Source of the DNA: an uncultured Clostridia bacterium
GTDB taxonomy: Bacteria > Bacillota > Clostridia > TANB77 > CAG-508
Length of the DNA stretch: 64,000 nucleotides
Direction: 5' to 3'
NCBI GenBank assembly: GCA_944392465.1
Contig: CALXWR010000001.1
Coordinates: 1 to 64,000 of the forward strand
The number at the start of each line of letters is the position of its first letter. The first letter of the stretch is position 1. A program made the position numbers and the translations under genes. Shown here piece by piece: positions 1 to 33,458 of this stretch. The notes under the pieces were generated by a model. That model had not been told where the DNA came from. It made no database searches and saw only the letters and a program-made list of their open reading frames with translations.

Positions 1-3000
1 CTTTCTATTACTTCTGTTGTTCCTTCTACTTTTCCTGTGTTTGTTACTACTATGCTATATTCTAGTTTTAATGTGCTGTCTCCTACTCTGTCTACTGGTA
101 TTTCTACTTTGTTTATTTTTCCGTTTTTTACTTTTTGTTCTTCTCCATTTAATTCTATCTTAATTAGGTTTTTGTCTACTGCCATATTAAATGGTAGTTG
201 TCTATAGTAGTATGTTACTAACTCGTCTTCTTCTGTATATATTCCTTGTGCATTTGTTGGTGCTTTTTCTTTTATGTATTCGTAGTATGGGATTTCTTTT
301 GCTTCTGTTTTGTATTCTTCTCCACAGTAGCCTTTATATGTTTCTTTATATGTCTTTTCTTCTGTTTCTTCTATATATGTTATTTCTTCTCCTGTTTCTT
401 CATCTACATATATTGCTGTTACTGTTCCACTTGGTATTTTTTCGTAATAGTATGTTACATATATATCTTCTCTTGTCATTGTTCCTTCTGCATTTTCTGG
501 TTCTGGATCTGCTTTTTTATAGTATTCTATTTCTTTTCTTTCTGTTTTATATTCGTCTCCACTATGTCCATTTATTACTTCTTCTTCTGCTAATACTTTA
601 TTGTCTGTGTCATCTTCTGGTGTGTTATCTTTTTCTAGGTATCTTACTATTACTTTTGCTAGTATCTTTCTATATATGTATACTACTGTTTTTTCTTCTT
701 CTGTTAATTCTCCTTCTGGCTCTCCTTCTACTCTTACAAAATCATAGTTTGGTATTTCTTTTTGTTCTGTTTTATACTTGTCTCCTATATACCCTTCTAT
801 TTCTTCTTTGTATGTTTTTTCTTCTTGCTCTCCTGTTTCTTCGTTTTCTTCTATATAGGTTATTTCTTCTCCTGTTTCTTCATCTATGTAGATTGCTGTT
901 ACTTTTCCGGCTTTTGTTTTTTCATAATAGTATGTTACTACTATGTCTTTTTCTGTCATGTTTCCTTCTGTGTTTCCACTATTTTCTACATATGTATATC
1001 CATATATTTCTTTTTGTTTTGTTGTATATTCGTCTCCTACTAATCCTTTTATTGTATAACCATATGTTTCTTCATCTTGTTCTCCACCTTCTGGTGTTTC
1101 TGCTTCTGGATTATTTATGTCTTGCTCTCTAAATGGTATTTCTTCTCCTGTTTCTTTATCTACATATTTTACTATTACTTTTCCTGGTATTTCGATATTT
1201 GTTTCAAACGAATCTTCTACTTTATTTGTTTGTTCTGTTTCATACAAGTCTATTGTTCCTGTTACTCTATTTAGCATCTTTTCTTGACTTGCATCTAAGT
1301 CACTAAATACCACTGTTATGTCTCTTGTTTCATCTACTGTATATGCCCCGTCTCTTATTGTATTAATGTGGTCTATGTTTACTGTCCATGTGATTGTTTT
1401 TGCATCTTCATCATATATTCCACCATCTAGATCTGTTCCTTCTGCTTCTTCATCTATATGATATGGTAAGTAGTCTACTATTGTTACTAATGCCTCTCCT
1501 ATATAGTCTGTTATTTCTGCTTTGTATTTTATGCTATAGCTTACTTTGTCTTTTGAACTTGTTATTTTCTCTGTTCCTGTTTTCTCTATACTACTTGTTA
1601 GGTCTGTTTCCATTAAGTTGTAACTATTTGTTACTCTTATTAGTTCATTTGTTTCTCCTATGTTTTCTATCACAGGTTCTTTGTAATATTCTAGGTCTCC
1701 TTCGTTTGTTTCTTTTTCTACTACACTATATACTATTTCTCTTCCGTATTCTGTGTATTTTGCTAAGTTTTCGAATGTATATTTCCAATTGTTTTCTTCA
1801 TTTAATACTACACTTTCTAGTTTTTCTCCATTTAATTCTTCGCTTCCATCTGCTGTTAATTGTATTGTTACACTTTCTGGTCTTCTTCCTTTTGTATCTT
1901 CGTTATCATTCCATACTTTTTCTACTGGTACTTCTATTTTGAAGTTTGTTGGAATTATTTCATTTTCTTCTGTTGTTTCTTCTTTTTCTGGTGTTTCTAA
2001 TCTTATTGTTCCTGTTGCCCTATTTTCCACTATTTCTTGTGTTACATCCATATTTACATATACTAACTCTATTTCTTTTGTTATGTTTATGTTATTTGAT
2101 TTATTTTCATATGTATCTATGTCTGTTATCTCTTCTGTCCATGTTATTGTTTTTTCTATTCTGTTATATGTTCCTCCTGCTATATCTGATAAACTCTCGT
2201 CTATTTCATATGGTAGATAATCTACTATTGTTACTGTAGCATTTCCTCTGTAGTCTGTTATTGTTGCATTATATTCTATTGTGTATGGTATAGCTTGGTC
2301 TTTATTTGTTATTTCTAATGTAGATGATGTTTTTTCTATTTCATCATCTATTATTGGGTCTTTTAATGTGTAATAGTATATTACTTCTATTGTTCCTTCT
2401 ATATACTTTCCTGTTGTCTCTCCCTCTACTCTTACAAAGTCATATCCTGTTATTTCTTTTTGCGTTGTTGTGTATTCTGTTCCTACTTTACCTGTTTGCT
2501 CTACTTCTCCTGATAACTCTTTTTCTGTTCCTTCTTCTAAATATTTTGCTATTACTGTTCCTTCTACATTTATATTTGTGTCGTGTTCATCTTCTACTTT
2601 TTCTTCTTTATCAATATCTACTAAACGAATAGTTCCTTCTACTCTGTTTGTAATTGTTTCTTGTGTCGTGTCTATGTTTCTAAATACTACTTCTATTTCT
2701 TTTGATATATTTATCTCTTTTTCACCGTTTGCATATGCATCTATTCCGTTTACTGCTTCTGTCCATGTTATCGTTTTTGCATCTGCGTTATATATTCCAC
2801 CTGCTATATTTGATTTTGCTTCATTTATTTCATACGGTAGATAATCTACTATTGTTACATTTGCAGTTCCTACATATTCATCAATACCTGCATTATATTG
2901 TATTGTGTATGTTATGGCTTGATTTGCACTTGCTATTACTTCTGTGTCTGATGTTTTTGTTATATTGCTTTCTAGTACTGGTTCATCTGTTTTGTAGTAG

Positions 3001-6000
3001 TATATTACTATTATTGTACCATTAATATATTCTCCACTTGTTTCCCCTTCTGTTCTTACAAGTTTGTATTTTTCTGCTACATTTTCTGATTCTTTTGTTG
3101 CATATATATCTCCTACATTTCCTGTTTGTACTACGTCTTCTACTACTCCTCCATTTTTGCTTGGCACTTTATGTGTTGTTCCTTCTATATAGTAATGTGT
3201 TATTACTGTTCCTTTTGTCTTTTCATTTGTTATGCTTAGTTCTACTACATCATCTTGTTTTGTTACAACAAATTCTGTTGTATTATCTTCTGGCATTACA
3301 TATCCTTCTGCTACTTTTGTTTCTGTTGCTATATATTCTCCTGCTTCTAATGTGACTTTTATTTGTCCTTTTGAGTCTGTTGTAAATCTTCCTATTTCTT
3401 CTTCTGGTGTTTCTTTTGATGCAATACTAAATTCTACTCCTTCTATTGGTGTTGTTCCATCTTTATCGTATTTATTTATTATTACATCTCTTACTACTTT
3501 TTTGTAGTAATATATTACCTCTACCTCTGGTGCAGTATATGTTCCATTTGCATTGCTTGGAGTTTCAACTAATTCATAGTCTTCTGCTAATTTGCTTTCT
3601 TCTATTGCTGTTGTTGTATATTCTTCTCCTTCTTTTCCACTATACTCCTCATCTTCTGCTACTCCTCCATCTTTTAATGGCACTTTTTCTTCTGTTCCTT
3701 CTATATAATGATGTACAGTTAGTGGTATTTCTTTTGCTTCATAATAGTATATTACTTCTATTGTTTTTCCTGTTTCAAATGTTCCTGTTGCATTATCTGG
3801 TATTACATATTCTCCATTTTCATCTTTTTCTAATTCATATTTCTCTAAATCTACCTTTGGACTTGTTGTATATTCGTCTTTATCTGTCTTTTCTAGTAGG
3901 TCATCTTCTGCAACTTTTATCTCTGTATATGTTCCATCTTCATTTTTCAAGTAATGATGTACTATTACTTTCGCTTTTTTATTATTTTGTATTGTAAATT
4001 CATGTGTTTCATTTTCTGTAAATGATATTTCTAGTGGTGTGCTATTTAATTCATACCCTTCTGGTGCTTGTATCTCTGTTATTGTATAATTTCCGTATTC
4101 TAATTGTGTTATTGCTTGTCCTTGGCTATTTGTCGTTACTCTTATAGTTGTTCCATCTTCTGATGTTATTTCAAATATTGCTCCTTCTAGTTTTTTGCTA
4201 TTATCTACACTATCTACTTTATTTATTGTTATTTTATTGCTTTTTAATGCATATGTTACTACAACATGCTTATCTTCTGTCATATTTTCAAATTGTGGCA
4301 TTGTATATGTCCCATCTGGATTTGCTTCAAATTGCCATTCTTCTCCATTTACTGTTATTCCTATTATTTCATAGTTTTCTTCTGGTGTCATTACTATTTG
4401 TTTAGTACTATTTTCTCCATATTTTACTGCCTCATATGGATTCATTCCTTCTCCAGATATACTTCCACCTTTTATTCCATCTATTTCTTTTACATCTGTT
4501 GTTATTTTAAATTCTTTTCTACTATTTTCAACAGTTAGTTCTTGAACTTCCGGAACTCCTACTTGATTTACTACCTCAAGTAGCATTCCATCAGAACCAC
4601 CTTGATTTTCTAATGTATGTCCATCAACTTCTATAGTATCACTTTTAAAATATCCTCCTGCAATAACTCTTCCATCCGTTGTTTCTGCTACTGATTGGAT
4701 ATACGAATTTTTACCTAAAGTCTTTGCCCATTTCACTTTTCCATCTTTACTATATTTTATAATCAAACTGTTATAATTACCCTCACTGGTTAACTTTGTG
4801 TTTCCAACTTGAATCGATTTACCTTCAAAATATCCTCCTACAAGAATCTCTCCATTATTTGTTTCCGTTACAGAATATATCGCATCTTCTCTATAATCGC
4901 CAGCTGAATTAGCCCATTCTACTTCGCCTTTTGCATTATATTTTATTACCATACTATCGTTAAAATAGTCATAATTACTATTATTTACTAATATTATATT
5001 TCCTACTTGAATTGTACTACCAGAAAAAGAACCTCCTACAATAGCTCCTCCATCACTAGTTTCTGATACTGAATAGATATAATCACTAAAGTTTCCTCCT
5101 ATATTCTTTGCCCATTCTACTTCTCCTGTACTATTGTATTTTATTATTAATCCATCGCCATATGATGTAGAATAACCATTACTTGTTAATGTTTCATTTC
5201 CTACTTGGATTGTACTACTCCAGAAATCTCCTCCTGCTATATACCCTCCATCACTCGTTGCTGCTACTGAATTGATATAATCCTGTTCACTTCCTCCTAC
5301 ACTCTTTGCCCATTCTACAGCTCCTTCGCTACTATATTTTATTATTAGGCCATCTCCATTTCCATTATTTGTTAATGTTTCATTTCCTACTTGGATTTCA
5401 CTACTATAAAAATATCCTCCTGCAATGGCTCCTCCATCACTTGTTTCTGCTACTGAATTGATATAATCATCTCTACTTCCTCCAAAACTCTTTGCCCATT
5501 CTACATCTCCTTCGCTACTATATTTTATTATTAGGCCATCTCCATTTCCATTATTTGTTAATGTTTCATTTCCTACTTGGATTCTACTACTTGTAAAATA
5601 TCCTCCTGCTATGATTCCTCCATCACTTGTTTCTGTTACTGAATAAATATATTCACTACTACTTCCTCCTATATTTTTTACCCATTCTACTTCGCCTTCG
5701 TTACTATATTTTATTATTAATCCATCATAATTACCATTACTTGTTAATTCTACATTTCCTACTTTAATTACACTACTCGAAAAATATCCTCCTGCTATAT
5801 ATCCTCCATCAGATGTCTTAGCTACTGATTGAATTTGGTCATCAGAACTTCCTCCAATTACTTTTGCATTTGTAACAACTGGATTAGGTAGTTCTTGCAT
5901 TTCGTATTTTATTATTAGTCCATCATCAGAACCATTATTTGTTAATGTCTCATTTCCTACTTGGATTCTACTACTTGTAAAATATCCTCCTGCTATGATT

Positions 6001-9000
6001 CCTCCATCACTTGTTGACGCTACGGAAGAAACAACATCTGTATTATTTCCTTCAATACTCCTTGCCCATTCTACAGCTCCTGAACTACTATATTTTATTA
6101 TTAATCCATCATCATTTCCTATACCCGTTAATTCTTCATTTCCTACTTGGATTGTTCCTTCGAAATATCCTCCTGCTATATAGCCTCCATCACTGGTTTC
6201 TGCTACTGAGTTGATTTCATCCCATTCACTTCCTCCAAAGCCCTTTGCCCATTCTACTTCTCCACTACTATTATATTTTATTATTAGCCCATCTTTACCA
6301 TATTCACCTCCTTTACTTGTTAATTCTTCATTTCCTACTTGGATTGTTCCAGAAAACTCTCCTCCTGCTAATATCCCTCCATCACTTGTTTCTGCTACTG
6401 AGCTGATTCCATCATAACCACTTCCTCCAATGCTCTTTGCCCATTCTACGACTCCTTCTGCACTGTATTTTATTATTAGGCCATCTGAATAGGATGTAGA
6501 ACTGCTATTATTTGTTAATGTTTCATCTCCTACTTGAATACTACTACTATAAAAATATCCTCCTGCTATATAGCCTCCATCACTTGTTGCTGCTACTGAT
6601 CTAATTGCATCTTGCTTACTTCCTCCAATGCTCTTTGCCCATTTTACTCCTCCGTCTGCATCATATTTTATTATTATTCCATCATTATATCCGTTACTTG
6701 TTAATGTATAATTTCCTACTTGGATTGTTCCACTAAACTCTCCTCCTGCCATATAGCCTCCATCACTTATTTCTGCCACTGAATTAACCTTATCAACAGA
6801 ATTTCCTCCAAAGGATTTTGCCCATTCTACGACTCCTTCTGCATCATATTTTATTATTAGGCCATCAGAAACTCCATTACTTGTTAATTCTTCATTTCCT
6901 ACTTGGATTGTTCCAGAAAAATATCCTCCTGCTAATATCCCTCCATCACTTGTTTCTGCTACTGATTGAATTTGGTCACTACTATTTCCTCCTATACTCT
7001 TTGCCCATTCTACGACTCCTTGACTATTATACTTTATTATTAGTCCATCTTTACCACCATTATTTGTTATTGTTTCATCTCCTACTTGGATTGTTCCTTC
7101 GAAATATCCTCCTGCTATATAGCCTCCATCACTTGTTTCTGCTACTGAATTAATTTTCTCATCACCACTTCCTCCAATTGACTCTGCCCATACTGGTACC
7201 ATATCTTCAGGTGCTTCTCTACTTGCTCCTATACCAAAGTAGTATTCTTGTCCTTCTAGGTCATATTTATCTGGTGCTTCTACTTCTACTGCTTTGTATA
7301 ATCCCTCTGTTAGGTCTGCTGTAAGTATTCCTTGTTCATCTGTTGTTACTGTATAATATTCTTTTCCATCTATTGTTTCTTTTGTTCCTAGTATTTCTCC
7401 TTTACTATTTGTTGCTGGTACTACTCCATCTTCTACATTGTATATTGCAAATTTTACATTTGCTATAGGCTCTTGTGTTTCTTTGTCTTTCTTTATTAAT
7501 TTAAATGATGGGCTATCTTCTATTGTTAGTTTTACTGTTGTTCCTTCTACTGCGTAGTTTTCTTCTGTTCCGTCCATGTTTAATAAGCTTAAAGTACCAT
7601 CTTTGTTTTCTACTTTAAACGTTATATCTTTTACTTTTGCATATCCTTCTGGTGCTAATACTTCTTTTAATGTGTATGTTGCTTCTTCTGGTTTTCCTTC
7701 TATGTATTGGTATAAATTGCTTATTGTTACTTTTCCTGTGCTATCTGTTACGTATTCTCCTATTTCTTCATCATTTTTGTATAACTTAAACTTAGCATTT
7801 GCTAAATATGTTACTTCTGTATCTGCTAATGCTGTTTCTGCTTTTGCCATTAATTCATCATTACTTAATGTTGCTTCTGTTGTTTTTTCTTGCTTAATTA
7901 ATTGCAAACTATATGTTGGTATTTTTTCGTCTTCTAAATTTAGTGTTATTGTTGGTATGCTGTCTACTTCTGTTATACTTTGGCTCGATACTGTTCCTTC
8001 TGTTATTTCCATACTGTAGCTTCCGCCATTGTTTATTATTCTAAATTTTATTGGACTTGCTAAATAATACCCTTCTGCTTTTGTTTCTTCTAATGTATAT
8101 TCTTGGTTTATTGAAAGTCCTTTTAATGTTACCTCTCCATTAACATTTGTAGTATATATTCTCCCATTTTCAGGTAAACCATATCCTGTTAATTTGTATT
8201 TTGCATATTGTACATTTACACTATTATTTCCTTGTTCTGTTTTGTGTAGTTTTAAGCTTGCTTTTACTTCGTCTTCTACTTTTACTGTTACTTTGTAGTC
8301 TTCTCCTTCTTCTTTTACTACTGCCATGTCTTCTTTTGTTGTTCCTTGTGTTTTTTCTATGCTTAAGTTTCCATTTGTTTTATCTACATGACCAATAAAC
8401 CTGATAACATCACTATTTAATTCATAGTCATCCGGTGTTTTTATTTCTTTTATTAAATATGCTTTTTCGGCATATAAATTATTTATTGTAAGTACTCCTT
8501 GTGCATTTGTTACTGCTGTTTTTACTTCTCCTGTTTCTTCATCTGTTATGCTATATGTTGCTCCTGGTACTAATTTATCCCTTCCTGTTTGATATTTTGT
8601 TAGTTCTAGATTATATTTTTCTGCTATCCTTAATCCTAATCTATTTGGTTCTACTTGTGTTTGATATTTTCCTTGGTCTGTGTCTAAGCTAAAGTATATT
8701 CCATGATGGCTATATGATGCTTGGTTAAATTCTACTCCATTTGGTATTTTTACTATGTACTCAAATGTGTATTCTGCTCCTGTTGGCATTACATAATCTC
8801 CAAGGTCTATTAAATATGTTTTTATATTATCCCAGTTTGTTACTTGGTCTGCTGTTTTCCATCCATTTTCTTGCTTTGTTATATCTTTATCTGGATTTGT
8901 ATTTTCTGAGTAATATACTGTTACATATTTCTTTAGTTCTTCTGGTACTTTTATTCCTGTATTTTTCATTTGTGTTGTAAATGTACTTCCTAATTCTCCG

Positions 9001-11622
9001 CCACTTAATACATATGTATTTCCTTCAAATGGTATTTTACCTATTATTATCATGTCACTTATTGTGCTTGCATAGTTGTTACGTATTTGCACTCCTATTG
9101 TTGCTTCTTTTTCTTCATTTTGGTCTACTACTCCATATGCTGGTTTTACTTCTGCTATTTGTGGTGATACTACATAGCTTCCTTTATCATCATAATTGCT
9201 TGCTACTTGGTTTGTTAGTAAGCTATTTGGTGATATCATACTTAAATTTGTAGAATCATAATTTACTTTTTCTTCTGTGTTTAGGTTATCATTTACATCA
9301 TATTTATCATTTGCATTATAGTAATAGTCACATGCTTCTTCATTTGATGCATATAATTCTATACTTTTGCTTGTTGTTGCTATTCTTGGGTCTGGTGTTA
9401 TATCTAAATCTATTGTTATATTAAATGATTGTGGTGTTTCAGTATTATTTTTTGTGTTTATTTTTATTAATTTTTCATCTTCTTGTTCTATTAATTCATA
9501 ACTTGTAATACTTACACTACCATTACTTATTTCTACATTGTTTATTTGAGCTGTTAATATTTGATCTGGTAGTTTTACTACAAAACTTCCATTTACCCAT
9601 CCTACTTGGTTATATGAAGTATTATAGTTTGCTTTTATTGTTATTTTTTCGTTTCTTTCTGTTGCTTGTGTTGATATAGTGTTATTACTTATACTTATTT
9701 CTGCTAATGAATATGGTGCTTCATAATGTGCTTGATGTACATCTGTATTTATATATGTTCCACCTAAGTATCCTACTAAGTTTGATTCTATATATTGTAA
9801 TTTATCAAATTCTTCTCTTGTATAATTTGTTGTTATATATTCGTCATCTAATTCTTTTATGTTATATACATAAAAACTTGTTTCTGCTTTTGTTTCACTT
9901 GTTTCTACTCTTATATGTTTTACTGGTAATTCGTATCTATATGGGTTACTTGATGTATATTTATTCCAATCATTTTTTGTAAATGTAGCTAATAAATCTC
10001 CTGTTTCTTCATCATATACTTTTATCCATCCATCTTCTTTTAGTAAATTATCTGCTCCTGAAAATCCTATTCCTACATTTGTTGTTACCTCTTCCATGCT
10101 AGCTTTACTTGAATCTGTTTTGATAAAGTTATCTACTTTTTGTGTTTCTCCATTCTTTGTTTCTTTCATTACAAGTCCATTTGATTCTCCATCTGTTCCT
10201 GTATATGCTTCCCATCTTACTTGGTATGTATCTTCTGTTTCCATGTCTGATAAACCATTATATATTCTTAATGGTTTTTGTTTTGAAACAATATATCTAA
10301 AGGTTGGTGTAGATATACTTTTCCCTACTGTTATGTCAAATCTTGCTACTGTTCCTGTTGGATTTCTATAATTTGCTACTAATGTTGCTGTGGCTGTATT
10401 TGATATATATGGATTTTCAAATTCTTCACTTGGGTTGTTATATCCATCATAACGTGTATTTACTGGTATTCTTATACTTACTGTATCTTCTCCTATGCTT
10501 TCATATGCTTCTAATGGATATACTACTTTTATTGTATATGAATTTGTTCTAGCTACACTTTTTGTTACTGTTCCATCTTCTGAAACTACTGCTTCTCTTT
10601 CTAATACTACTTTTCTTGTTTCTGCATCATAGTTAAATGTTGCATTTCCTGTATATGTTACACTTATTGGGTCATATCCATTTAATTGTGGTATTTCTGC
10701 TTCTGTATGGTTTGTTTTTAGTATTAATTCTTGGTTTGCTTCTCTTGTATTTATTGTAAAGTCTAGTGAAATTATTCCTTCTTCTTCATTTATTCTGTCT
10801 GATAAATTTGTTTTTGTTGAACTTGTTGAATAAATTTCTGCTTTTGTTTCTCCATACCAATCTACATTGAATTCTACTGTTTTTTCTATTGGTATTTCTT
10901 CATTCTCTTCTGTTACATATGTTCCTGTAAATGTTACACTATTTACTTTGCTATAGTTATTTATATTATTTCCTATTGCAGAACTTTTTCTTGATGTTGA
11001 TGAATAATCTCCACTTCTTATTATTCCTGTTAAAAGTTTCTGAGTTCCATTATTTAAATCATTAAATTCTATTGCTTTTATATTATTACTTACATAATTA
11101 TCTTTTAATTCATCATCTTTTGGAAGGGCTGTTTGTAAATATGAGTTTGTTCCATTTACTGTGATTTTTCCGTTCTTTACATATCCTGCTGTATTAACGC
11201 TTATTTCCATGTACAAAGTATCTTCTTCGCCTATTCGTTTACTCGTTCCACGTATGCTTTCTGCAAAACCATCACTATTTAAGTCACGCAAAAAGAAGGC
11301 ATCAAAATTAACGTGGCCGTCTGTTCCGTCCACTATTTCTTCGCCATCTTGAACCTGATCATATGTCATTGCTTTTGCAAGTTCAGGTGATATTGAATTT
11401 AATCTCGTTCTATATTGCACAAATTGCATTATGGCTATAACTATTAGTGCAAGTGCAACAACTGCACTAATGCTTATTATCGCCATGTTTTTTGCTTTAA
11501 GCTTTATACCCTTACTTGCCTTTTCATTATTACCGTTTAAGCCATTCTATCATTTTATTGCCATTCTTTAAAATGTGACTCTTTAAATTAATGTGATTTT
11601 CAGGTTTTTTGTTTTTTCTCAT
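1..11622 (-). CDS. Giant modular surface adhesin (partial; N-terminus joined by a +1 shift at CGG)
   Basis: This frame is open from 11486 to the left edge (3,828 codons, no stop), so the C-terminus and anchor are outside the window. In order from the N-terminus: a short basic cytoplasmic stretch, one membrane helix (about 11430-11486), a long beta-rich stalk (about 8700-11400), four Cna_B/SpaA-like domains (about 7220-8630), fourteen propeller repeats (4590-7190), an InlB-like beta repeat (4240-4530), then alternating SpaA, MucBP and DUF11-type modules to about 200. Its likely role is host or mucin adhesion; that is inferred from the families. The ATG at 11486 has no ribosome site. A good site (GAGGGGG, 11631-11637) precedes ATG 11622, whose frame meets CGG at 11535-11533 and then TAA. 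A +1 shift at that CGG enters the giant frame exactly, giving one continuous protein. I therefore give 11622 as the start; 11486 is the alternative. Confidence 0.85.
4590..7190 (-). repeat. Fourteen tandem propeller repeats, about 60 codons each, in two sets of seven
   Basis: Each unit carries the pattern GG-x(4-6)-SVAETSDGGYIAGGYF, then IQVGNETLTNNG, DGLIIKY and VEWAKS, about 55-66 residues long. I count fourteen units. Between the seventh and eighth (about 5870-5930) the regular VEWAKS end is replaced by an irregular Pro-containing linker, so the array divides into 7 + 7. The last units are more diverged than the middle ones. Seven such units normally close one beta-propeller, so two propellers in tandem are inferred. 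The repetition is at protein level inside an open frame; it is not a CRISPR array. Confidence 0.85.
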
Positions 11623-20245: not shown

Positions 20246-22741
20246 CTATTTATAAATTTTTGCTACTATTACGCTCATGTCATCTTTTTGGTTTCCAAAG
20301 TCGTTGTCTATAGCTTCTTTTAAAATTATATCTGCTATTTGCTGTGCATCTGTTGTTTCCATATCTTCCAATAAGTATTTTAGCCATAAGTGTTTATTTA
20401 AGTATTCTTTATTAGAATCTATTATTCCATCTGTGCACATTACTATTATGTCTCCACCTTCTAAATCAAAGTCATATACTACTAAATCGTTTTCGCTTAC
20501 TATTCCTGTTGGTAATGACATTGACTTAAGCAATTGTACTTCTTTTCCCCTTTTTACATATGTTGGGCATGCTCCATTCTTTATGAATTCCATGTTTCCA
20601 TTAAATAAATCTAATATTTCTATGTCTAATGTAGCATACATATCTTCTTCTGTGTTTGCTGATAATGTAGAATTTATTAGCTGTAGTGATACATCTTTTT
20701 CAAAGCCCGCTGTTAGTAGTCTTTCTAACATTTTTATTGCTATTTTGCTACTCTTCATTGCTTCTGGTCCCGATCCCATTCCATCACTTAATGCTAATAA
20801 ATATTTTCCATCTTCTAGTCTTGTTTCTAAGCTACTATCCCCAGATACTGGCGAGTCTGCTTTTGTTGATTTTGCTGTTCCAATTTGTATATGATAGTTA
20901 TCATCTGATATATATGTAAATTTGCATATGTTTTTTTCTAGTCTTAGCCCACATTCTTGTTTTTGCATTATCATGTTTTGGTCTAAAACTTTGCTGATTA
21001 TTTTACATATTTTCCTTATATTACATTCTGTTCCATCTAGATTATTACATATATCTGTATATACTTCTACTATAAATCTATTAGATGCATTTTGTTTTAT
21101 ATCTATGGTTTTTATTTCTATTTCTTTTTGTTCTAATAATTTAAGTATTTCTTGCTTTTTATCTGCAAATTCTTCTCTATCCTCTTTTTTCTTTTTATCA
21201 ATATCTTCAGCCATTTTTGATATTGCTTCTGATACTCCTTTTAGTTGAGATGATACTGTTTTTTTGCTTTCATCTAATTTCTTTTTCCATATAAAATTCA
21301 TTTTGCTAATTTTATATGAATAATTAATTGCTTTTACTATTTTATATACATCTTCTCTAGCTTGTGTTTTTGTGTTTTCAAAGCCTACTATGTAGTTATT
21401 ATGTTTTTCTAATATTTTAATTAAGTTTTTTTCTGTAATTATGTCGTTATCTAATAAATAATTAAAAATATCTTGTAAAAGTTCATCTGTAGAATAATAT
21501 ATTTCATCATATAACATATTGTCTTCTAAGTCTTCTATATTCTTTTTTAATTCTTCTTTAAAAATATCTATATTCTTTTTTTCTTGTAGTTTTAATTCAT
21601 CATCTGTAAGTATTGTAGCTGCAGCATTACTGTAGCTTTCAGCTATATCGTTTATTGTGTCTGACATACTATTTAATTTATATATCGTATCTTGATTTGC
21701 CTCTATGCTTCCTCCTGTAGTTTCTGGCAATAGTTTATTTGCCCCAACTAAGTCTTCTATATTTATTTCTACATTTTTTGGAATCGCAAGCAAACCTAAT
21801 GCCGCAATTAAAATTTCTTGAAATATTATTAATGGTGCTGTATTTCCATTTGCTACATATGCTAAAACTATATTTCCTAAAGCAAATCCAACTATTACTC
21901 CAATTCTGCCAAATTTATTAAGTAATCCTGCTATTAATCCAGATACTGCATACACTGCAATCATTAGTGGTTCTGTTTCTGTAATTACTCCTAATACAAC
22001 TCCTATGGTTATACCTCCAGTTGCTCCAACAAGTAACCCGTTTTTCCATCCTAAAACTAATACAATTAAAATGCTTAAAATATTTTTTATAGAAAATCCG
22101 AATATGTTTATATTACCAAATGCTGTTATAGTAATTGCTAAAAGTAAACTTGTACCTATAACCTCTTCTATAGTAAATGCTCTTCTAGCACCAAAATCTA
22201 CTATTACAGTTATTGAGTTTACAAATATTTTATAAAATATAAGTGTTGTTGTTGCAAGCATTATAGATGTTAATAAGTCAAACACATAAAAAGTTCTAAA
22301 AAACATTGGTATAACTTGTACTATTAATACTGCAAAAAATAAATGTCCTCCTATTTTTCTTTTCTCATTAACATTTTCTTGTAGTTTTGGTCTTACTATT
22401 AAAATCGATATAAAAAGTACTAATGATGTTATAAAATATATTAATAAATTTGTAAATCCAAAACTTACAAATGTTCCAATTAATGATAATACGTACATAA
22501 TTCCTATTGGTCTATTATTTCCTAGTGCTGATGCTATAATGGCTAGTCCAAATGGTGTTATTGTAAATAACAAACTGCTGTTATTAAAACCTACCATTGA
22601 AATCATAAAAGTTACTATATATAAAATTATATTTTGTTTTGCAAATAATCTTTTTAACACATCTTTTGTATTAACTTTTTTTACTCCTTCGTCATAGTAC
22701 TCTTGATTTTCATCAGAGTCTTTTGTTATATTTTGAAACAT
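20246..22741 (-). CDS. spoIIE: Stage II sporulation protein E, PP2C phosphatase
   Basis: This 831-residue protein has an N-terminal bundle of about ten membrane helices (about 35-330), a central coiled regulatory region (about 350-560) and a C-terminal PP2C domain with LALSDGMGSGPEAMKSS, GGDIIVMCTDGI and a late DDMSV metal motif. SpoIIE dephosphorylates SpoIIAA to release sigma-F in the forespore and helps polar septation. Length and layout match the family. Its presence shows the organism sporulates. The GAGGTGA site precedes ATG 22741. A candidate Spo0A-type promoter lies about 200 bases upstream (22946-22978). Confidence 0.96.
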   Translation of the reverse strand: MFQNITKDSDENQEYYDEGVKKVNTKDVLKRLFAKQNIILYIVTFMISMVGFNNSSLLFTITPFGLAIIASALGNNRPIGIMYVLSLIGTFVSFGFTNLLIYFITSLVLFISILIVRPKLQENVNEKRKIGGHLFFAVLIVQVIPMFFRTFYVFDLLTSIMLATTTLIFYKIFVNSITVIVDFGARRAFTIEEVIGTSLLLAITITAFGNINIFGFSIKNILSILIVLVLGWKNGLLVGATGGITIGVVLGVITETEPLMIAVYAVSGLIAGLLNKFGRIGVIVGFALGNIVLAYVANGNTAPLIIFQEILIAALGLLAIPKNVEINIEDLVGANKLLPETTGGSIEANQDTIYKLNSMSDTINDIAESYSNAAATILTDDELKLQEKKNIDIFKEELKKNIEDLEDNMLYDEIYYSTDELLQDIFNYLLDNDIITEKNLIKILEKHNNYIVGFENTKTQAREDVYKIVKAINYSYKISKMNFIWKKKLDESKKTVSSQLKGVSEAISKMAEDIDKKKKEDREEFADKKQEILKLLEQKEIEIKTIDIKQNASNRFIVEVYTDICNNLDGTECNIRKICKIISKVLDQNMIMQKQECGLRLEKNICKFTYISDDNYHIQIGTAKSTKADSPVSGDSSLETRLEDGKYLLALSDGMGSGPEAMKSSKIAIKMLERLLTAGFEKDVSLQLINSTLSANTEEDMYATLDIEILDLFNGNMEFIKNGACPTYVKRGKEVQLLKSMSLPTGIVSENDLVVYDFDLEGGDIIVMCTDGIIDSNKEYLNKHLWLKYLLEDMETTDAQQIADIILKEAIDNDFGNQKDDMSVIVAKIYK

Positions 22742-23209: not shown

Positions 23210-26200
23210 TTATTTATCTTTATTTGTTTTTCCTTTAAGTACTTTTCTTCTTATTAATACAATACCTCCAATTAGAATTGCTCCTATTGTAATTCCTAGT
23301 AGATAGTAAATTCTTTGCTCACCAAATGGTGGTAAAATTACTATTCTTTCTGCAACGTTTGCATCAACTTCTGATGCATCTGGTAATGATGGATCTTGGT
23401 TTCCAACTACTGAGTAAGCCATTCTTCTACCAGCTTCGTTTGATGTCTTAACTATTTCTACCATATTTGCATATGTTAAATCGTCTGCAGTATTTTCTGG
23501 TGTTATTTCTTGAGATAGAATTAACATCTTAGTAATGCTTTCTCCAGGTAGTAATGCTTTCTCTCCGAAGTTTGGTGTTTGGATTACATCTATAAATTGA
23601 TTTATATCTTCAGTTAAGTTGCTATTTACTAATCCTTGGCTAATTATTTCTTCTTTATTTATAACTGCCCAGCCGTTTTCTGAGTTGGTTTTTGTTCCGT
23701 CTTCGCTTTCACCATTTACCGCATTTGATGCATTGTTCATTGCGTTTGCGTCAAATCTTAGGTTGTTTTGTACATAATCTATAAGTTGATTTGTTGTTGT
23801 TGTAGACTCATGAGCTCCATCTGTATTTCCTAAGTAGTAGAAGTTTTTATTTGCTCCATCTATGTAATCTGTCTCACCAACATTCGTTACTTTTACTGCA
23901 TATGTTATTTGAACTGTTGCACCATGCATTATTTCTTCGTCCATTGTTAATTGAATTATACCTTTATCTGTACCTTTTACTATTGTATCAATTATTTCTC
24001 TATAAGAATATCTGTGTTTATCGTCTGTTCCATAATATGTTGGATAAATTCCTTCATAATCATCTTTTACAGCTCCGATATTATATTCTTTATGGTCTTG
24101 CCATAATGCATTATTTGCTTCAGCTGATATATCAAATAAGATATTGTTATTAGCAAGAGTAACTCTTACATTTGCTACTGATTTATCAATTTCTAATTGT
24201 GATTTTGGTCTTTCCTCTAAACCAAAGTCTAGATTTTGAATTACATAGTTACCATTTTGTTTATTATCTCCTGTGTAGTAATCTTTTGTAGAAGTCTCTT
24301 CGTTATTTTTTACTTCATCATCACCATCTGTTGTTTGTCTATCATACTCAACTTCCATTACGATTACACCAGTTTCTGCTACCATATTTGTATTAGAAAT
24401 TAACTCATTATATAGGTCACTCATTTGAGATTCACTATATGGTGTATCATTATATGATGGAACTTGATATGGTGATGCTAAAACTTCTGCTACATGGTTT
24501 GTTACATTGTCTTTACTATAGTTTATAACTGCTTCTCTTCTTGACCATATATCTTTTGCATCTGAGTAGTTATTTCCTGCTTCAGTTTCTTTATCAGTAT
24601 CATATATATCATATCCAAATGTTCCTGATTCATTTTGTTCTGCTGTATCTGTGTATCCAAAGTATGTTTCATCTATATCTGTTGGTCCATCTTGTGGTAC
24701 ACCATCTTGATATGATGTAGATTTAAAGTCTTGACCATTGTATGAAACTATATTTGCTCCTGTACGTCCTAGAGATTCAGTAGATAAAGCTGTCGCATCT
24801 GTGTCACCATATTTAAATCTTACTATATAATCACCTGGTATGAATTTTTGAATGACATATTTTCCACTTTCGTCTGTTGTTGCTGTTCCCCATAGCCATT
24901 CTGATCCATCTTCCAATATTTCAATAAGCTCTACATTAACACCTGCTACATCCTCTTCTCCTTCTTCTCTTATACCATCACCTATCATAGCTTTACCATT
25001 TGATTCATTTCTTTCATCTTCCCAAACCATACCATTAACTTCCCTTACATCATCTGGATTAACTGTTACATTTAATGGTGGTGCTTCGTCTGTATCATCT
25101 TCAAAGTTCTTCTCGTATTTTTCTCCTTCTAGGTCTTCTTGTTCTAAGTTACCTGGGTTAGAATCTCTATCTATGATACCTGCAATATCGTCAGGTCCTT
25201 TAGTAACACCATTTGGAAGTTCTGTATTTTCTCCATAGTATGTTGCATATCCATTAATTTCAACAATGTTATGTTTTGGAGTAGCATCATTATCAACTAT
25301 AATTTTTCCTGAATCATCTTTATTTACTTGGAATGTTAGATACATATATGCAGTTTCTCCAGTTTTAAGTTTTATATCTTCAAGTGCATGAATATATAAA
25401 TTCTTAAGTCCTTCTAGTTCTTTATTTGTACCTGGTCTATTTGCATCTACTTCTTCAACTGCTATTAATTCATCTTCATCATTAAGTGCCATGTATTTTA
25501 ATGCTAAGTTATTATTGTTATCGTCTATTGTTGCTTGTGGTTCAGCCATCATATCATAGTATTTTTCTGAAACTGTTTTATTTCCTCTTGGATAGTATTG
25601 GAATGTTATCCATGATAAGTTTGGTTTAAATGTATATTCTGCATCATAGTAATCTACAATTTCTTTTATTTGTGTCATTATACTCATTGATTGATTTGTA
25701 ATTGCTATTTGATATGTTGCATAAACTTCTAGTGGATCTCCTGGATGATCTGGTTGTAAATCTGTTCCGAATTGATAATCTGATTCATATACATCTCTGT
25801 TATATCCAATTCCATAGTAGTTATCATAGTCTTCCATTCTTATGTTAATATCCCAATAAGTATCATTATCTTGTCCGTCTTCACTATTTTTACTGTCTTC
25901 ATCTTCTTCTTTTCTCTTATCATAATCATATGTTAATGTTTTACCATTAATTTTAACTGCTGCTTTAAACATATCTTTTCTTAGTGCCGCATCAAATTCT
26001 TGTCTTCTCCATAATCCTAAGTTTACATAGTATTGACCTGGATATATTGGTTTATATTCAACTCCTGCTACAGTTACTGTTGAAGTATCATATTCAACAC
26101 TCCAAGGATCTGGTTCTTCGCTTTGTGGATCATTATCATTTATTACGAATTGATCATATACTGGATATAAATCTCTTTCAAAACTCTTTGGTGATCCCGT

Positions 26201-28366
26201 ATATGCTTGGATTTGACAGTCTTCTATGAATTGGAATTTTCTCCATGCATCTTCATCATTTCCTGCTAATCCACTATAGATTTGTTTCATAGCTTCCTCA
26301 TCAGGGAATTTCTTGTTTGCTGTAATATATTCTCTTACTTTCTTAGAAATCTGTCCTTCTGAGAATGTTTCTGTTTCATTTCCATTTTCATCAAAATCAT
26401 AACCATCTATTAGTTGTGTTTCTGTTTTACTGTATGTTCCATTATCATTTAATGTGTATCCCATTAAATCTCTTTGTGTGAATGTTGCATTATAATCACC
26501 AACTTTTCCTAGAGAGTTGCTTGATGGATAATTTTCTGGATAAGCAGTAATGTTAGAGAATCTCTTGTCAAAGTCTTGTCTTGAGATTTCTACACCCTCA
26601 TATGGATTACCACTATCAGCCTCTGTTCCTTTAGATGTTACATTCCATTCATTTGTATTATATAATCCTGCATTAACCATTGCTTCGACAGAATCATGTT
26701 GTCCATTTGCTGTATTTAAATATTCTGTTGGCAAATATCTTTGTCCATTATATTCAAATACTACATAATATTTTTTAAGTGGATCTAATCCTCTAAATAA
26801 ATATCTTCCTTGTTCATCTGTATATGTTGGATTGATTCTATGCATTAATTCTTCATCACTATCAGCAGCATTTTCGTCTGTTAGCAATTCTACAATGTTT
26901 CCATCTTCATCATATAATGTTACTTTTACATTTTTCATTCTTTTATCGATGTCGCCTTCTGTGTTGTATACACCATCTGCTTTATTCTCTTTTGTTGCCA
27001 TTGCATCTTCCCATACAATACCACCTAATTCCATTCTTATGTCTAATAAGTCGTCATCATTTGCTGGTATCTCTAAAGATGTTGTAAACAATTTTCTTCT
27101 TCCTAATAATAAGTTAGCAATGTTTTGAGCATCTATAGGCTGTAGCCATGAGTAAGCTGTACAATAGTAGCATGATGTTGTTGTTGTGTTTCCTTCACTA
27201 TCTGTACTACTATGCGTATGAGTAGAGTGAACATCATCCCATGAAATTTGATAAACTTTAGTATCCATTATACATACAGTTGCATATGCAGCCATCCATT
27301 TAAAATCTATATGTAACTTTAGAAAACTTACACTACCTGCATCTGTTGTAACCCCTTGGTTTGGATTTTTAATTTTTAAATAGAATTCATCCTCCCCTGC
27401 TGATTTTCCTTTAGGATATAATTGTTCTTTACGATCCACGAAAGAATTATCACCTGTATTAGGTTCAAAAAATGATAAATCATATTCTTCATCATTAACT
27501 ATATATTTTTCAATTTCTATTCTTTCTTTTATTTGTGCTTTACTAGAGTTATATCCTTTAAAATACATGTCAGATATTCCTCCAAATGCCACTCCTTCAA
27601 ACACACCATTTACGTAGTCTATTGAAAATGGTCCTATTACTAATGTGTCTGCATCCTTATCAACTAATACTTTTATTTCATCTAAATCTGTTTGATCGGT
27701 TGGATTAATTGTTGGTTGTTCTTGAGTTGAACCTTCTTGAGCCATCATATTATTAAAATATTCTTCATATCTTAAAGCTTCAGTATTTATTGCGTTTCCA
27801 CCAATAGCACCAGCCGAACCTTGCTCTAATGCAAAGTCGGTACCCCATAATGCCATTTGTTTCTCCGCTGACCAACTTCCTAATCCTGGGTATGTAAATA
27901 TATAAGTAGCATCTGGATGAGGAACTGTTAAATCTATATGATTTCCTGTGCACCATAAATATGGATAAGTAATTCTTCCATTATTTTCGAATTCTCTACA
28001 ATATTTGTGTGTTTGTGGCCATGCTTTTTTTGCTGTACTTTCTATAGAACCATATTTTAGTGCATCTGGTATTGGAAAGTTTCTGTTTTCTTCCCATAGT
28101 ACTATTCCTTGTTGCACACAATATAATTCTTTTCCACCAACAATAACATGATGGGCTGCAGGATACCATTCAATAAACACTCTTGCCTCAGTACTACCAT
28201 CTGAATTACTTACACTTGCTTCCGCTACTACCTCTATTGGTGTAGACGTTTTTGTTGTACCTGCAACATCTGCGGCAAGTGTCATTTTGCTTAGCATAGT
28301 AAGTATACATGTTGCAACACCCAAAAATATCACTATGAAAACCCTTTTAAGCAATTTGGTATTCAT
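23210..28366 (-). CDS. Large surface adhesin with N-terminal thioester domain and SdrD_B-type domains
   Basis: This 1,718-residue protein starts at ATG 28366 after GGAGGAAA. A signal peptide (about 1-31) leads into a thioester-type domain: LYCVQQG with Cys83 and the TQxA-like KQMALWG with Gln170, the pair expected to form an internal Cys-Gln thioester able to bond host amines. SdrD_B/Cna_B-like domains follow, with signatures such as GGIVWED and GMVWEDERNESNG. DUF11-like repeats come next. The C-terminus is VILPPFGEQ, a membrane helix (about 1685-1705) and a basic tail, that is, a sortase-like layout with no clear LPXTG. It follows the DUF11 protein gene by 20 bases and is surely in the same operon. 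Covalent host attachment is inferred from the family. Confidence 0.88.
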   Translation of the reverse strand: MNTKLLKRVFIVIFLGVATCILTMLSKMTLAADVAGTTKTSTPIEVVAEASVSNSDGSTEARVFIEWYPAAHHVIVGGKELYCVQQGIVLWEENRNFPIPDALKYGSIESTAKKAWPQTHKYCREFENNGRITYPYLWCTGNHIDLTVPHPDATYIFTYPGLGSWSAEKQMALWGTDFALEQGSAGAIGGNAINTEALRYEEYFNNMMAQEGSTQEQPTINPTDQTDLDEIKVLVDKDADTLVIGPFSIDYVNGVFEGVAFGGISDMYFKGYNSSKAQIKERIEIEKYIVNDEEYDLSFFEPNTGDNSFVDRKEQLYPKGKSAGEDEFYLKIKNPNQGVTTDAGSVSFLKLHIDFKWMAAYATVCIMDTKVYQISWDDVHSTHTHSSTDSEGNTTTTSCYYCTAYSWLQPIDAQNIANLLLGRRKLFTTSLEIPANDDDLLDIRMELGGIVWEDAMATKENKADGVYNTEGDIDKRMKNVKVTLYDEDGNIVELLTDENAADSDEELMHRINPTYTDEQGRYLFRGLDPLKKYYVVFEYNGQRYLPTEYLNTANGQHDSVEAMVNAGLYNTNEWNVTSKGTEADSGNPYEGVEISRQDFDKRFSNITAYPENYPSSNSLGKVGDYNATFTQRDLMGYTLNDNGTYSKTETQLIDGYDFDENGNETETFSEGQISKKVREYITANKKFPDEEAMKQIYSGLAGNDEDAWRKFQFIEDCQIQAYTGSPKSFERDLYPVYDQFVINDNDPQSEEPDPWSVEYDTSTVTVAGVEYKPIYPGQYYVNLGLWRRQEFDAALRKDMFKAAVKINGKTLTYDYDKRKEEDEDSKNSEDGQDNDTYWDINIRMEDYDNYYGIGYNRDVYESDYQFGTDLQPDHPGDPLEVYATYQIAITNQSMSIMTQIKEIVDYYDAEYTFKPNLSWITFQYYPRGNKTVSEKYYDMMAEPQATIDDNNNNLALKYMALNDEDELIAVEEVDANRPGTNKELEGLKNLYIHALEDIKLKTGETAYMYLTFQVNKDDSGKIIVDNDATPKHNIVEINGYATYYGENTELPNGVTKGPDDIAGIIDRDSNPGNLEQEDLEGEKYEKNFEDDTDEAPPLNVTVNPDDVREVNGMVWEDERNESNGKAMIGDGIREEGEEDVAGVNVELIEILEDGSEWLWGTATTDESGKYVIQKFIPGDYIVRFKYGDTDATALSTESLGRTGANIVSYNGQDFKSTSYQDGVPQDGPTDIDETYFGYTDTAEQNESGTFGYDIYDTDKETEAGNNYSDAKDIWSRREAVINYSKDNVTNHVAEVLASPYQVPSYNDTPYSESQMSDLYNELISNTNMVAETGVIVMEVEYDRQTTDGDDEVKNNEETSTKDYYTGDNKQNGNYVIQNLDFGLEERPKSQLEIDKSVANVRVTLANNNILFDISAEANNALWQDHKEYNIGAVKDDYEGIYPTYYGTDDKHRYSYREIIDTIVKGTDKGIIQLTMDEEIMHGATVQITYAVKVTNVGETDYIDGANKNFYYLGNTDGAHESTTTTNQLIDYVQNNLRFDANAMNNASNAVNGESEDGTKTNSENGWAVINKEEIISQGLVNSNLTEDINQFIDVIQTPNFGEKALLPGESITKMLILSQEITPENTADDLTYANMVEIVKTSNEAGRRMAYSVVGNQDPSLPDASEVDANVAERIVILPPFGEQRIYYLLGITIGAILIGGIVLIRRKVLKGKTNKDK

Positions 28367-28386: not shown

Positions 28387-31300
28387 CTAATTTTTATTAT
28401 TTAGCACACGTTTTTTTATTTCATAAACTCCAAATCCAATTATTGCTATTACTACGAATGCTATTGAGGTATACATTACAATTTTACCTGTTACAAGTGA
28501 GAAAATTACATCAGCTTTTCCCATATCATCTTCTGTTTCTATCTTATTTGCTACAGTAGAATCTATATCTTGTAAGCCCAAATCATTATAACTTTCATAA
28601 ATCTCTGAATTGTTTGTAGTTGTTCCTAACATGCTTTCTGTTATTTGTGTACTAACTATAAGTTTAATTTCCTTTGATTCTCCCGGATTTATCTTTTGAT
28701 CTGATAAGCTTGAATTGTATATGTTTCCATTATCTGATAAGTACCAATCTGTATTAAGTTCTGTATTAAAGTCTACATTTTCTGGTAAATAATCTACTAT
28801 CTTATTTACATATCCTGGTACAGAGCCTTCATTTGTAACAACTATTTTGTACTCTATTACTGCACTACTCTTTCCTAGATTTTGTGATAAAACTTCAACC
28901 TTTGCAAGTTCACTATTGTTATATTCATCTACTCTTGTACCAATTGTTGGAGTGGTTAATGATATTTTATCAACATATTTATCTAGTCTTAAATCAAATT
29001 TGCTTGCTGTATATAAACCTATATCTATATCTCTTACATTTTCGTTATCAATTGTTAGTGTGTCTGTAATACCTGCTATTTTTCTTTCTCCATTAATAGT
29101 TATATTAACATCTATTGCATCTGAATTAAATCTTTCATTTACTCCTTCTTTTTGATATTCTGTTAAACTAAAGTTTGAAGAATCATATGCAAATACTACT
29201 AAATATTCTCCATTTTCCAAACCATTTAATTCATATTTTCCATCACTTGAAGTAGATGTTTGTATTGGTTCATTTGTATCTGGATTAGTTACAACATTGT
29301 TTGTGTTTTTATCTAACAATAGTACTGGAATATTTGCAATCCCGTTTTCATCATCGTCTCTTTCGCCATTCTGATTTACGTCTAACCATGCGGTACCTGT
29401 TATTTTGTACCCCATAGTTTCATTTGGACCACCCGAATTATTATGATTTGCATTCGGATCATATTCTATTATTGCTGTTACCTCATTTGATGTAATCGTA
29501 TTTACTTCGTCTGTCTCTAATGTAGCAGATGTTATAATTTCTTTGTCCTTTGAATTTGGCAACATATCTGCTCTAACTGTAATATCAACAACCATTTCGT
29601 AATCTGGCTGAAAATCAACAAATTTTATAGTAAATGTATTGTTGGTTATTCTGTCTAAAGTTTTTGTTTCTCCATTAATTGTATAGGTGGCTTTTACAAA
29701 ACTTATCCCATCTGGAATTGTCATTGTCATAACATTTGACCTTGCTACGGCATCTCCATTATTCTTTACAGTGAATCTATATGAATATTCTGTTCCTTCT
29801 TTTATATATTGCTCTTCTAGTTCGTTTTGAACTATACTCATATCTATTTCCGCTGCACGTAATCGATACATATTTGAATAATGCTCATCTACTTGATCTG
29901 CAGTAACAGTCATTAAAGTATCTAAATTGCCTGTAAATGTATCCACTTCAAATTCTATATACACATAACACATTGTACGCAAATCAATCAACTCGTTACC
30001 CGGATTTGGATTTTCTTTCAAATAAGCTGTCATACTATCTAAATTTCCAACATTTACAGTTATATTATTTCCATTTATATTAACTCCGCTTTCAATTTTG
30101 TCTTTAAAACTTACACTATCTGAATAATATACATTTTTTATCTTTAATCCCTCAGGTAAGTTTACACGAAGAGTTACATTTGATAAATTCTTGTCTAACG
30201 AAATGTTCTGAATAGTCACTTTATAATCAACTATTCTTCCTTTTCTTAATGTAACTGGCAATGTTATTTTTGATATGTTAGTAATTGCTAAATCTCCTTC
30301 TAATACTTTAAAAGTAAATGGTGTAGATTTTATTTCTCCATCAATATTATCTCCTATTAATGACACTATGTTTTCAACATCTTTATCTCCAGGGTAAACA
30401 TCTTCAGTAATAACCTGTTGTTCGCCATTATCGCCTGTTATAGTTGTTTTTTTCTTTCCTTTTTCAATTCTTAATTCATATCTTGTAGTTACAGTTTTAT
30501 CAACTGGTATATCTCCCAATTCTATTATCTTTTCTTTGTCAGCACTATCTTCAAAATTCAAGAACCCTTCTGGTATTCCTGTATGGACTGTTCCTTCTGG
30601 AGCTATTGCTTTTAATTTAGCATTTTGTATATCCTCGTCTCCGATGTTTTTAACTGTTGCTGTTATTTCTACTATTTGTCCTTCTCTTACTATGTCTGTA
30701 TCTGTCTCAAGCATTATCTCTGCTTCTGGTCCCTTTCCTGTAGTTACTCCAAGTATTGCAGATGTTTTATTTTCTGAAATTGTTCCTATTTCAGCTTCAT
30801 TATCAAAATATACTTTATACATTGTATATGCACTATTGTTGTTGCTTATATCTGCTGGCATATTGATATCATAATTAAATTCAAATTTGTCTCCAGAATT
30901 CATTTTGAATCCATCATTAAATACCATTAAGAATGATTTTGAAGCTGTTGTTGCCTCTTTGCTCCAACCATTGCTTCCATCATTTAAATTTCTTGAAGCG
31001 TTTGCATTATCTGAATAATATACTGTATAATCAGATGCGTTTAATCCAACTGTTCCAACACCTGTTGCTAAAGGTATTGTAAATGTTGAGCCTAATTCTT
31101 TATCTGAGTCTATTTCTTTATTTCCTTGTGCTGGAATTCTTCCAAGTACAGCTATATTGCTTATTTCGTTTGGATAATTATTTACTACTGCACCTTTTAT
31201 TGTTGCAACTCTATTTTGTGAGTTTGCATCAATGTCTACAGTTTTAGCTTCTCCTGATACTGATTGTACCTCTCCGGCATTATCTTTATAATTGTCGATT

Positions 31301-33426: not shown

Positions 33427-33458
33427 GACAACCTCCATTTTTTTACATATATACTTAT

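Follow-up and report, generated by a model that had tools for sequence, protein, structure and literature searches.

The window is the whole stretch of DNA analysed, 64,000 nucleotides of a contig from an uncultured Clostridia bacterium, and its base 1 is also base 1 of the contig. On the minus strand, an open reading frame that begins at 11486 runs off the contig start at position 3. It encodes 3,828 amino acids and its C terminus is missing; the true protein must be longer than this, because the contig stops within the gene. Homologous open frames extend to ~6,100 codons. The features of the gene, in the order of translation, are as follows.

3-11486, minus strand: giant SpaA/MucBP surface protein of at least 3,828 aa (reading of the open frame, and Pfam)
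11421-11486, minus strand: hydrophobic stretch at the N terminus, either a signal anchor or a signal peptide, present in homologs too (direct reading)
8361-8612, minus strand: SpaA domain (Pfam)
7998-8258, minus strand: SpaA domain (Pfam)
7593-7814, minus strand: SpaA domain, profile positions 13-82 (Pfam)
7221-7508, minus strand: SpaA domain, match limited to profile positions 2-79 of 91, with the last strand apparently downstream of the rings (Pfam)
5892-7208, minus strand: ring 1, blades 1-7, predicted to be a closed beta-propeller with seven blades (repeat count, AlphaFold2, Foldseek and VIA-align)
5871-5903, minus strand: irregular junction after blade 7, EMQELPNPVVT, kept in relatives, its first residues prolonging the last ring-1 strand (repeats and model)
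4563-5885, minus strand: ring 2, blades 8-14 (repeat count, and a row in the alignment for the ring-1 model)
4497-4553, minus strand: candidate final strand of the SpaA domain interrupted by the rings, VPEVQELTVENSRKEFKITT (homolog flanks and alignment with L124)
3978-4235, minus strand: SpaA domain (Pfam)
3501-3719, minus strand: MucBP domain (domain match)
3219-3488, minus strand: SpaA domain (Pfam)
2367-2558, minus strand: MucBP domain (Pfam)
1671-1931, minus strand: Cna_B domain (Pfam)
201-1181, minus strand: four MucBP domains in a run, at 921-1181, 669-905, 441-653 and 201-425 (domain match)

The SpaA domains pass the Pfam cut-off, which identifies the product as a SpaA/prealbumin-like stalk protein. 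An earlier note on this DNA had described a Cna_B/MucBP stalk of over 3,800 residues. The stalk in fact consists chiefly of SpaA (six) and MucBP (six to eight) domains, with one Cna_B domain. Upstream of the first ATG the frame remains open for 20 codons (11486-11560, minus strand) with no other common start, and homologs have a basic stretch at this place. The true start of the protein may be non-standard, or there may be a sequence error in this region.

Two more giant surface proteins, of 1,718 and 1,683 aa and with SdrD_B and other stalk-type domains, are encoded on the minus strand at 23210-28366 and 28387-33438. The minus-strand gene at 20246-22741 encodes a SpoIIE homolog with an N-terminal membrane part and a phosphatase domain, which suggests that sporulation genes are retained in this genome of 1.34 Mb.

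Residues 1430-2308 of the giant protein (nt 7199-4563) consist of exactly 14 repeats of 59 to 66 residues, with lengths of 61, 61, 61, 66, 64, 61 and 61 in the first set of seven and 61, 62, 62, 66, 66, 62 and 59 in the second. Their signature is x-V-E-W-A-K-S-I-G-G-S-x-x-D-x-I-x-S-V-x-E-T-S-D-G-G-Y-I-A-G-G-Y-F ... I-Q-V-G-N-E-T-L-T-x-N-G ... D-G-L-I-I-K-Y-x-x-x-G. The array was found independently by Tandem Repeats Finder with a period of 183-186 and a score of 1644, and it is therefore not a chance feature. An x-V-x-W strand opens 13 of the 14 units, and 12 of the 13 inter-blade junctions are regular. The sole irregular one is the seventh, at which the usual G-x-V-x-W turn is replaced by ...IIKYEMQELPNPVVTNAK... 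(wider context ..DDGLIIKYEMQELPNPVVTNAKVIGG..). This parsing of the open frame bears out the proposal of the earlier note that fourteen repeats fall into 7+7 with an irregular linker exactly after the seventh; the coordinates it gave, 4590-7190, are correct to ~25 bases. The blade-by-blade comparison that it proposed yielded mean identities of 67% within set 1, 57% within set 2 and 61% between the sets.

Ring 1 was modelled by AlphaFold2 from an alignment of nine rows, ring 2 among them, all of which came from the window or from related loci. The predicted structure is a closed toroid with a pLDDT of 93.1 (above 92 in five of five models) and a pTM of 0.92; since the query comprised seven blades only, the model alone could show no other blade number. 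In a Foldseek search with this model the top five matches were all CylK (E ~5e-24 to 3e-23, ~445 columns), far ahead of the next. VIA-align superposed it on the CylK crystal structure with Z 47.9 and 2.0 Å over 381 residues (model 12-443 on CylK 251-654), followed by WRAP-derived 7BIG and WRAP (2YMU) at Z 35. By sequence, too, CylK structures are the only significant solved relatives (E 1e-14), so that the propeller is related to CylK in sequence as well as in fold. The C-terminal domain of CylK is a crystallographic seven-bladed propeller (PMC8916777). Ring 2 has 62% aligned identity to ring 1 and, in the light of this and of the comparative data given below, would likewise be a seven-bladed ring. 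Pfam matches obtained with single rings (WD40 for ring 1, Reg_prop and CHB_HEX_C for ring 2) were weak though above cut-off, covered short partial stretches and were dismissed as propeller-like noise, and a PHROGs search gave nothing informative.

The array might instead be an open beta-solenoid or a superhelix of blades, without closure and with a merely incidental break after blade 7. Near-identical tandem repeats are typical of solenoids too, and the single-sequence AlphaFold2 model of all 14 blades was not confident (pLDDT 39) and was set aside. However, the ring-1 model can be superposed from end to end on the crystal structure of a closed seven-bladed propeller, and repeat number varies freely in solenoids whereas the arrays studied here occur in classes of 7, 14, 21 and 35. 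We give the solenoid next to no probability. The array is almost certainly a tandem of two complete CylK-type beta-propellers, each with seven blades.

The blade counts of relatives bear directly on this conclusion. Of 385 genomes sampled from the order, 66 had ring-1 matches, almost all of them belonging to one family; of 391 sampled from the class, 7 did. We counted blades with an iterated profile in 49 untruncated arrays, whose spans form three separate classes with none between: 349-506 residues, 817-931 residues and, for one array, 1,339 residues. These classes are one, two and three rings. Blade numbers were exact multiples of 7 in 25 of the 27 arrays whose median blade score reached 40 bits or more; at one in seven per array the chance probability of this is 2e-19, a value that is illustrative only, as the arrays share ancestry. 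The three-ring array (L065, G297:C8:7000-17000) has 21 blades with breaks after 7 and 14. Its genome, G297, which is placed in the family of the window's genome, also carries a two-ring protein (L014/L066). Outside the main family, L185, L186 and L189 have seven blades each, and a frame of 2,424 codons in another family of the class (L184, G715:C82:1-9000) contains 35 blades with linkers after 7, 14, 21 and 28, apparently five seven-bladed rings. Exceptions are L094, with eight blades in another architecture, and several divergent arrays counted as 13 by machine; for L097 and other divergent arrays the blade counts are uncertain. Two further machine counts were rejected upon reading by eye: the 15 matches in L072 were read as 7+7 with degenerate blades, and the eight in L112 as seven with one blade split. 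Seven consecutive blades per domain are thus the rule in the window and in its relatives. The earlier note had named a solenoid or a different number of blades as outcomes that would speak against two complete rings; both were looked for, and what emerged was a closed ring-1 model that superposes on CylK and relatives that count in sevens with a break after the seventh. The related viral contigs searched contain distant single-ring or partial relatives only. One contig filed as viral (L118, IMGVR_UViG_2710723536_000001) encodes two free-standing seven-blade proteins of broadly this type, which share 59% identity.

The break after blade 7 is also conserved. Junction 7 is the longest in 15 of 20 fourteen-blade arrays and tied-longest in one more, and the median gap in such arrays is 7.5 at this junction versus 1-2 elsewhere. 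In the relatives, as in the window, a short segment stands there in place of the G-x-V-x-W turn, and in most cases it contains a proline (ELPNP, ELNNP, EVPEV and similar). The ring-1 model suggests how the chain could leave the ring. In regular blades a ..DGLIIKY.. strand (59-65), a five-residue turn and a VEWAKSI strand (71-77) form a hairpin-like unit, and the first (6-16) and last (433-444) strands of the model are the longest, the last one continuing into the junction. Judging from these strand extents, it is very probable that the last strand (..DGLIIKY..) of the seventh blade of each ring pairs with that ring's own first strand. Such a velcro closure would need no G-x-V-x-W turn and would leave the chain free to exit, in the case of ring 1 through the short E-L-P-N-P segment. 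The turn would then be absent only after blades 7 and 14 because the seventh blade closes on its own ring, and the conserved break is best read as the point at which the chain departs from a closed ring.

That fourteen blades can form two seven-bladed rings is already known from WRAP (Npun_R6612, PDB 2YMU), which like the window array has 14 near-identical blades arranged in two separate seven-bladed propellers (PMC6805158, PMC9218822). WRAP, however, is of WD40 lineage and forms the C-terminal part of a STAND ATPase, whereas the window protein is a surface protein with CylK/SBBP-type blades, whose 7+7 plan is kept across several genera as the blades diverge. Fungal blade arrays of 15 (7+8) and 47 blades have been described as well (PMC9218822). 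What seems new is the occurrence of CylK-type rings in the SpaA stalk of giant Clostridia surface proteins, together with the conserved exit junction and the counting by whole rings.

At constant blade number the blades themselves turn over. The mean identity among the window protein's own blades is 62.5%, and these are closer to their siblings than to the blades at corresponding positions in any fourteen-blade relative other than L014 (66.6%); among themselves the L014 blades are 70.9% identical, which exceeds that 66.6%. The best L014 match lies at the same position for only 5 of the 14 window blades (0 to 5 of 14 in other relatives), and within L014 blade 9 is identical to blade 12. In a tree of rings, first and second rings were not separated into two clades (18 and 16 changes, similar to shuffles), which gives no ground for claiming two ancient ring types, and in several proteins (L075, L076, L064) both rings are each other's nearest kin. 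Offset-7 identity in the window, compared as a possible sign of whole-ring duplication, showed no excess; blades 4/11 and 5/12 do have common inserts, yet this pattern is not kept in L014 and was discarded as evidence. From the similarity within proteins, the poor correspondence by position and the mixed ring tree we conclude that homogenisation or exchange of blades takes place within genes while blade number stays in sevens. Gene conversion would account for this, and so would unequal exchange combined with selection for closed rings. A broader scenario that we put forward tentatively is a lineage-wide string of rings: surface proteins carrying one, two, three or five whole rings, in which internal recombination homogenises and swaps blades, selection for closure fixes seven, and the contact face diversifies fast at constant architecture. 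The family in any case offers a natural experiment on counting in repeat proteins, with dozens of arrays in which blades turn over but whole rings are, with few exceptions, the only units gained or lost.

The earlier note had pictured the rings as a double head. They do not form a tip, however, but lie in the middle of the chain, with ~1,430 residues between them and the N terminus, and are apparently nested in a SpaA domain. The SpaA match that precedes them extends no further than profile position 79 of 91; of the other SpaA domains, two reach 91 and the rest 82, 86 and 89. Most ring-bearing SpaA homologs have ..YYFGIGxSRE.. before the rings and ..VPEVQELTVENxRKEFKITT.. after them, and a SpaA domain without rings (L124) aligns across the joined flanks with no large gap at the ring site. 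Joining the SpaA flanks of the window protein made the Pfam match neither longer nor higher (2-80 vs 2-79; 51.5 vs 52.0 bits), for which reason insertion between the last two SpaA strands is likely rather than proven. We consider it quite probable on these sequence comparisons that the ring pair is inserted there, so that the discs would project sideways from an otherwise continuous stalk. A search of open-licence papers found no published propeller inserted in a SpaA domain.

As to function, the rings probably serve as multivalent ligand-binding discs, by which a surface-anchored fibre would stick to glycan, mucus or another surface. Their contact face would be formed by the most variable loops, namely those between the W strand and the strand that opens the next blade, and the long excursion that precedes the DG-I-I-K strand. 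The most variable blade columns (12, 13, 15, 34, 43, 50 and 51) are mostly loops according to the strands of the ring-1 model. Binding of glycan, mucin or matrix is plausible by analogy and from the neighbouring MucBP domains. The best NCBIfam match is to the LipL53 family of SBBP-repeat lipoproteins of Leptospira (NF047494, E 3e-30), although the score of 105.3 bits lies below the curated cut-off of 400 for membership. LipL53, a lipoprotein of the cell surface for which binding to matrix proteins is reported (PMC13066512), differs from the window protein in anchor and architecture. Vibrio cholerae Bap1 and RbmC are modular adhesins with a closed propeller that binds polysaccharide (PMC10102183) and has a velcro strand such as is proposed for the window rings; this propeller has eight blades and is a single ring with other domains alongside, with no sequence relation seen here.

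The main rival is that the rings have no ligand and a structural role only, as spacers by which the stalk is widened or stiffened or as padding that resists proteases. Their position in mid-stalk, apparently within a SpaA domain and away from any tip, fits such a role, as does internal homogenisation at a fixed count, which suits selection on the fold over selection on a specific pocket. On the other hand, ring number varies among relatives (1, 2, 3 and 5) and single rings occur on other scaffolds, which is more like a functional module, and the most variable positions fall in loops. We regard structural rings as a possibility of lower probability. That the rings are surface modules gained and lost whole favours binding.

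The closest solved relative, CylK, is an enzyme, and the rings could accordingly be enzymes like it or like the structurally similar streptogramin lyases. The CylK propeller (PDB 7FH6, 7RON) agrees with the window rings in its seven blades, its repeat signature and its fold, and long within-blade loops have been described for it (PMC8916777). It is, however, a single ring in a cyanobacterial biosynthetic enzyme with a fused Ca2+-binding domain, as opposed to two rings in a surface stalk. The family hallmarks are an N-terminal Ca2+-binding beta-roll domain and the catalytic residues Arg105, Tyr473 and Asp440; the active site lies at the interface of that domain with the propeller (PMC8916777), and CylK has inter-blade Ca2+ sites. 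Pfam names no N-terminal Ca2+-binding domain in the window protein, and no unique active site is obvious among blades that are nearly identical and turn over. An enzymatic role is thus very unlikely. Taken as a whole, two tandem rings set in mid-stalk, for which ligand binding is the most likely function, are the best explanation, with a probability of roughly 0.8. The ring proteins point to a surface protein family of uncultured Clostridia that is large and apparently undescribed, and to a candidate means of attachment to host or neighbour surfaces.

With the window protein's own C terminus cut off, anchoring was considered in nine homologs (L161-L168 and L015). LPXTG was absent from all nine C termini, which end in a hydrophobic stretch, followed in most by a basic tail. 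In most of them T-G directly precedes the final hydrophobic stretch, and the window's genome has eight sortase genes; an unusual sorting signal in the ring-protein homologs is possible.

Two observations concern the reading frames of relatives. In L015, L086, L089 and L115 the blade region is divided over two frames, which may reflect assembly error, decay or phase-variable frameshift, indistinguishable from one another here. The open frame of L101 (G361:C4) is 26,199 codons long, spans the entire 78,600-base contig and holds one seven-blade ring; it may encode a giant surface protein.
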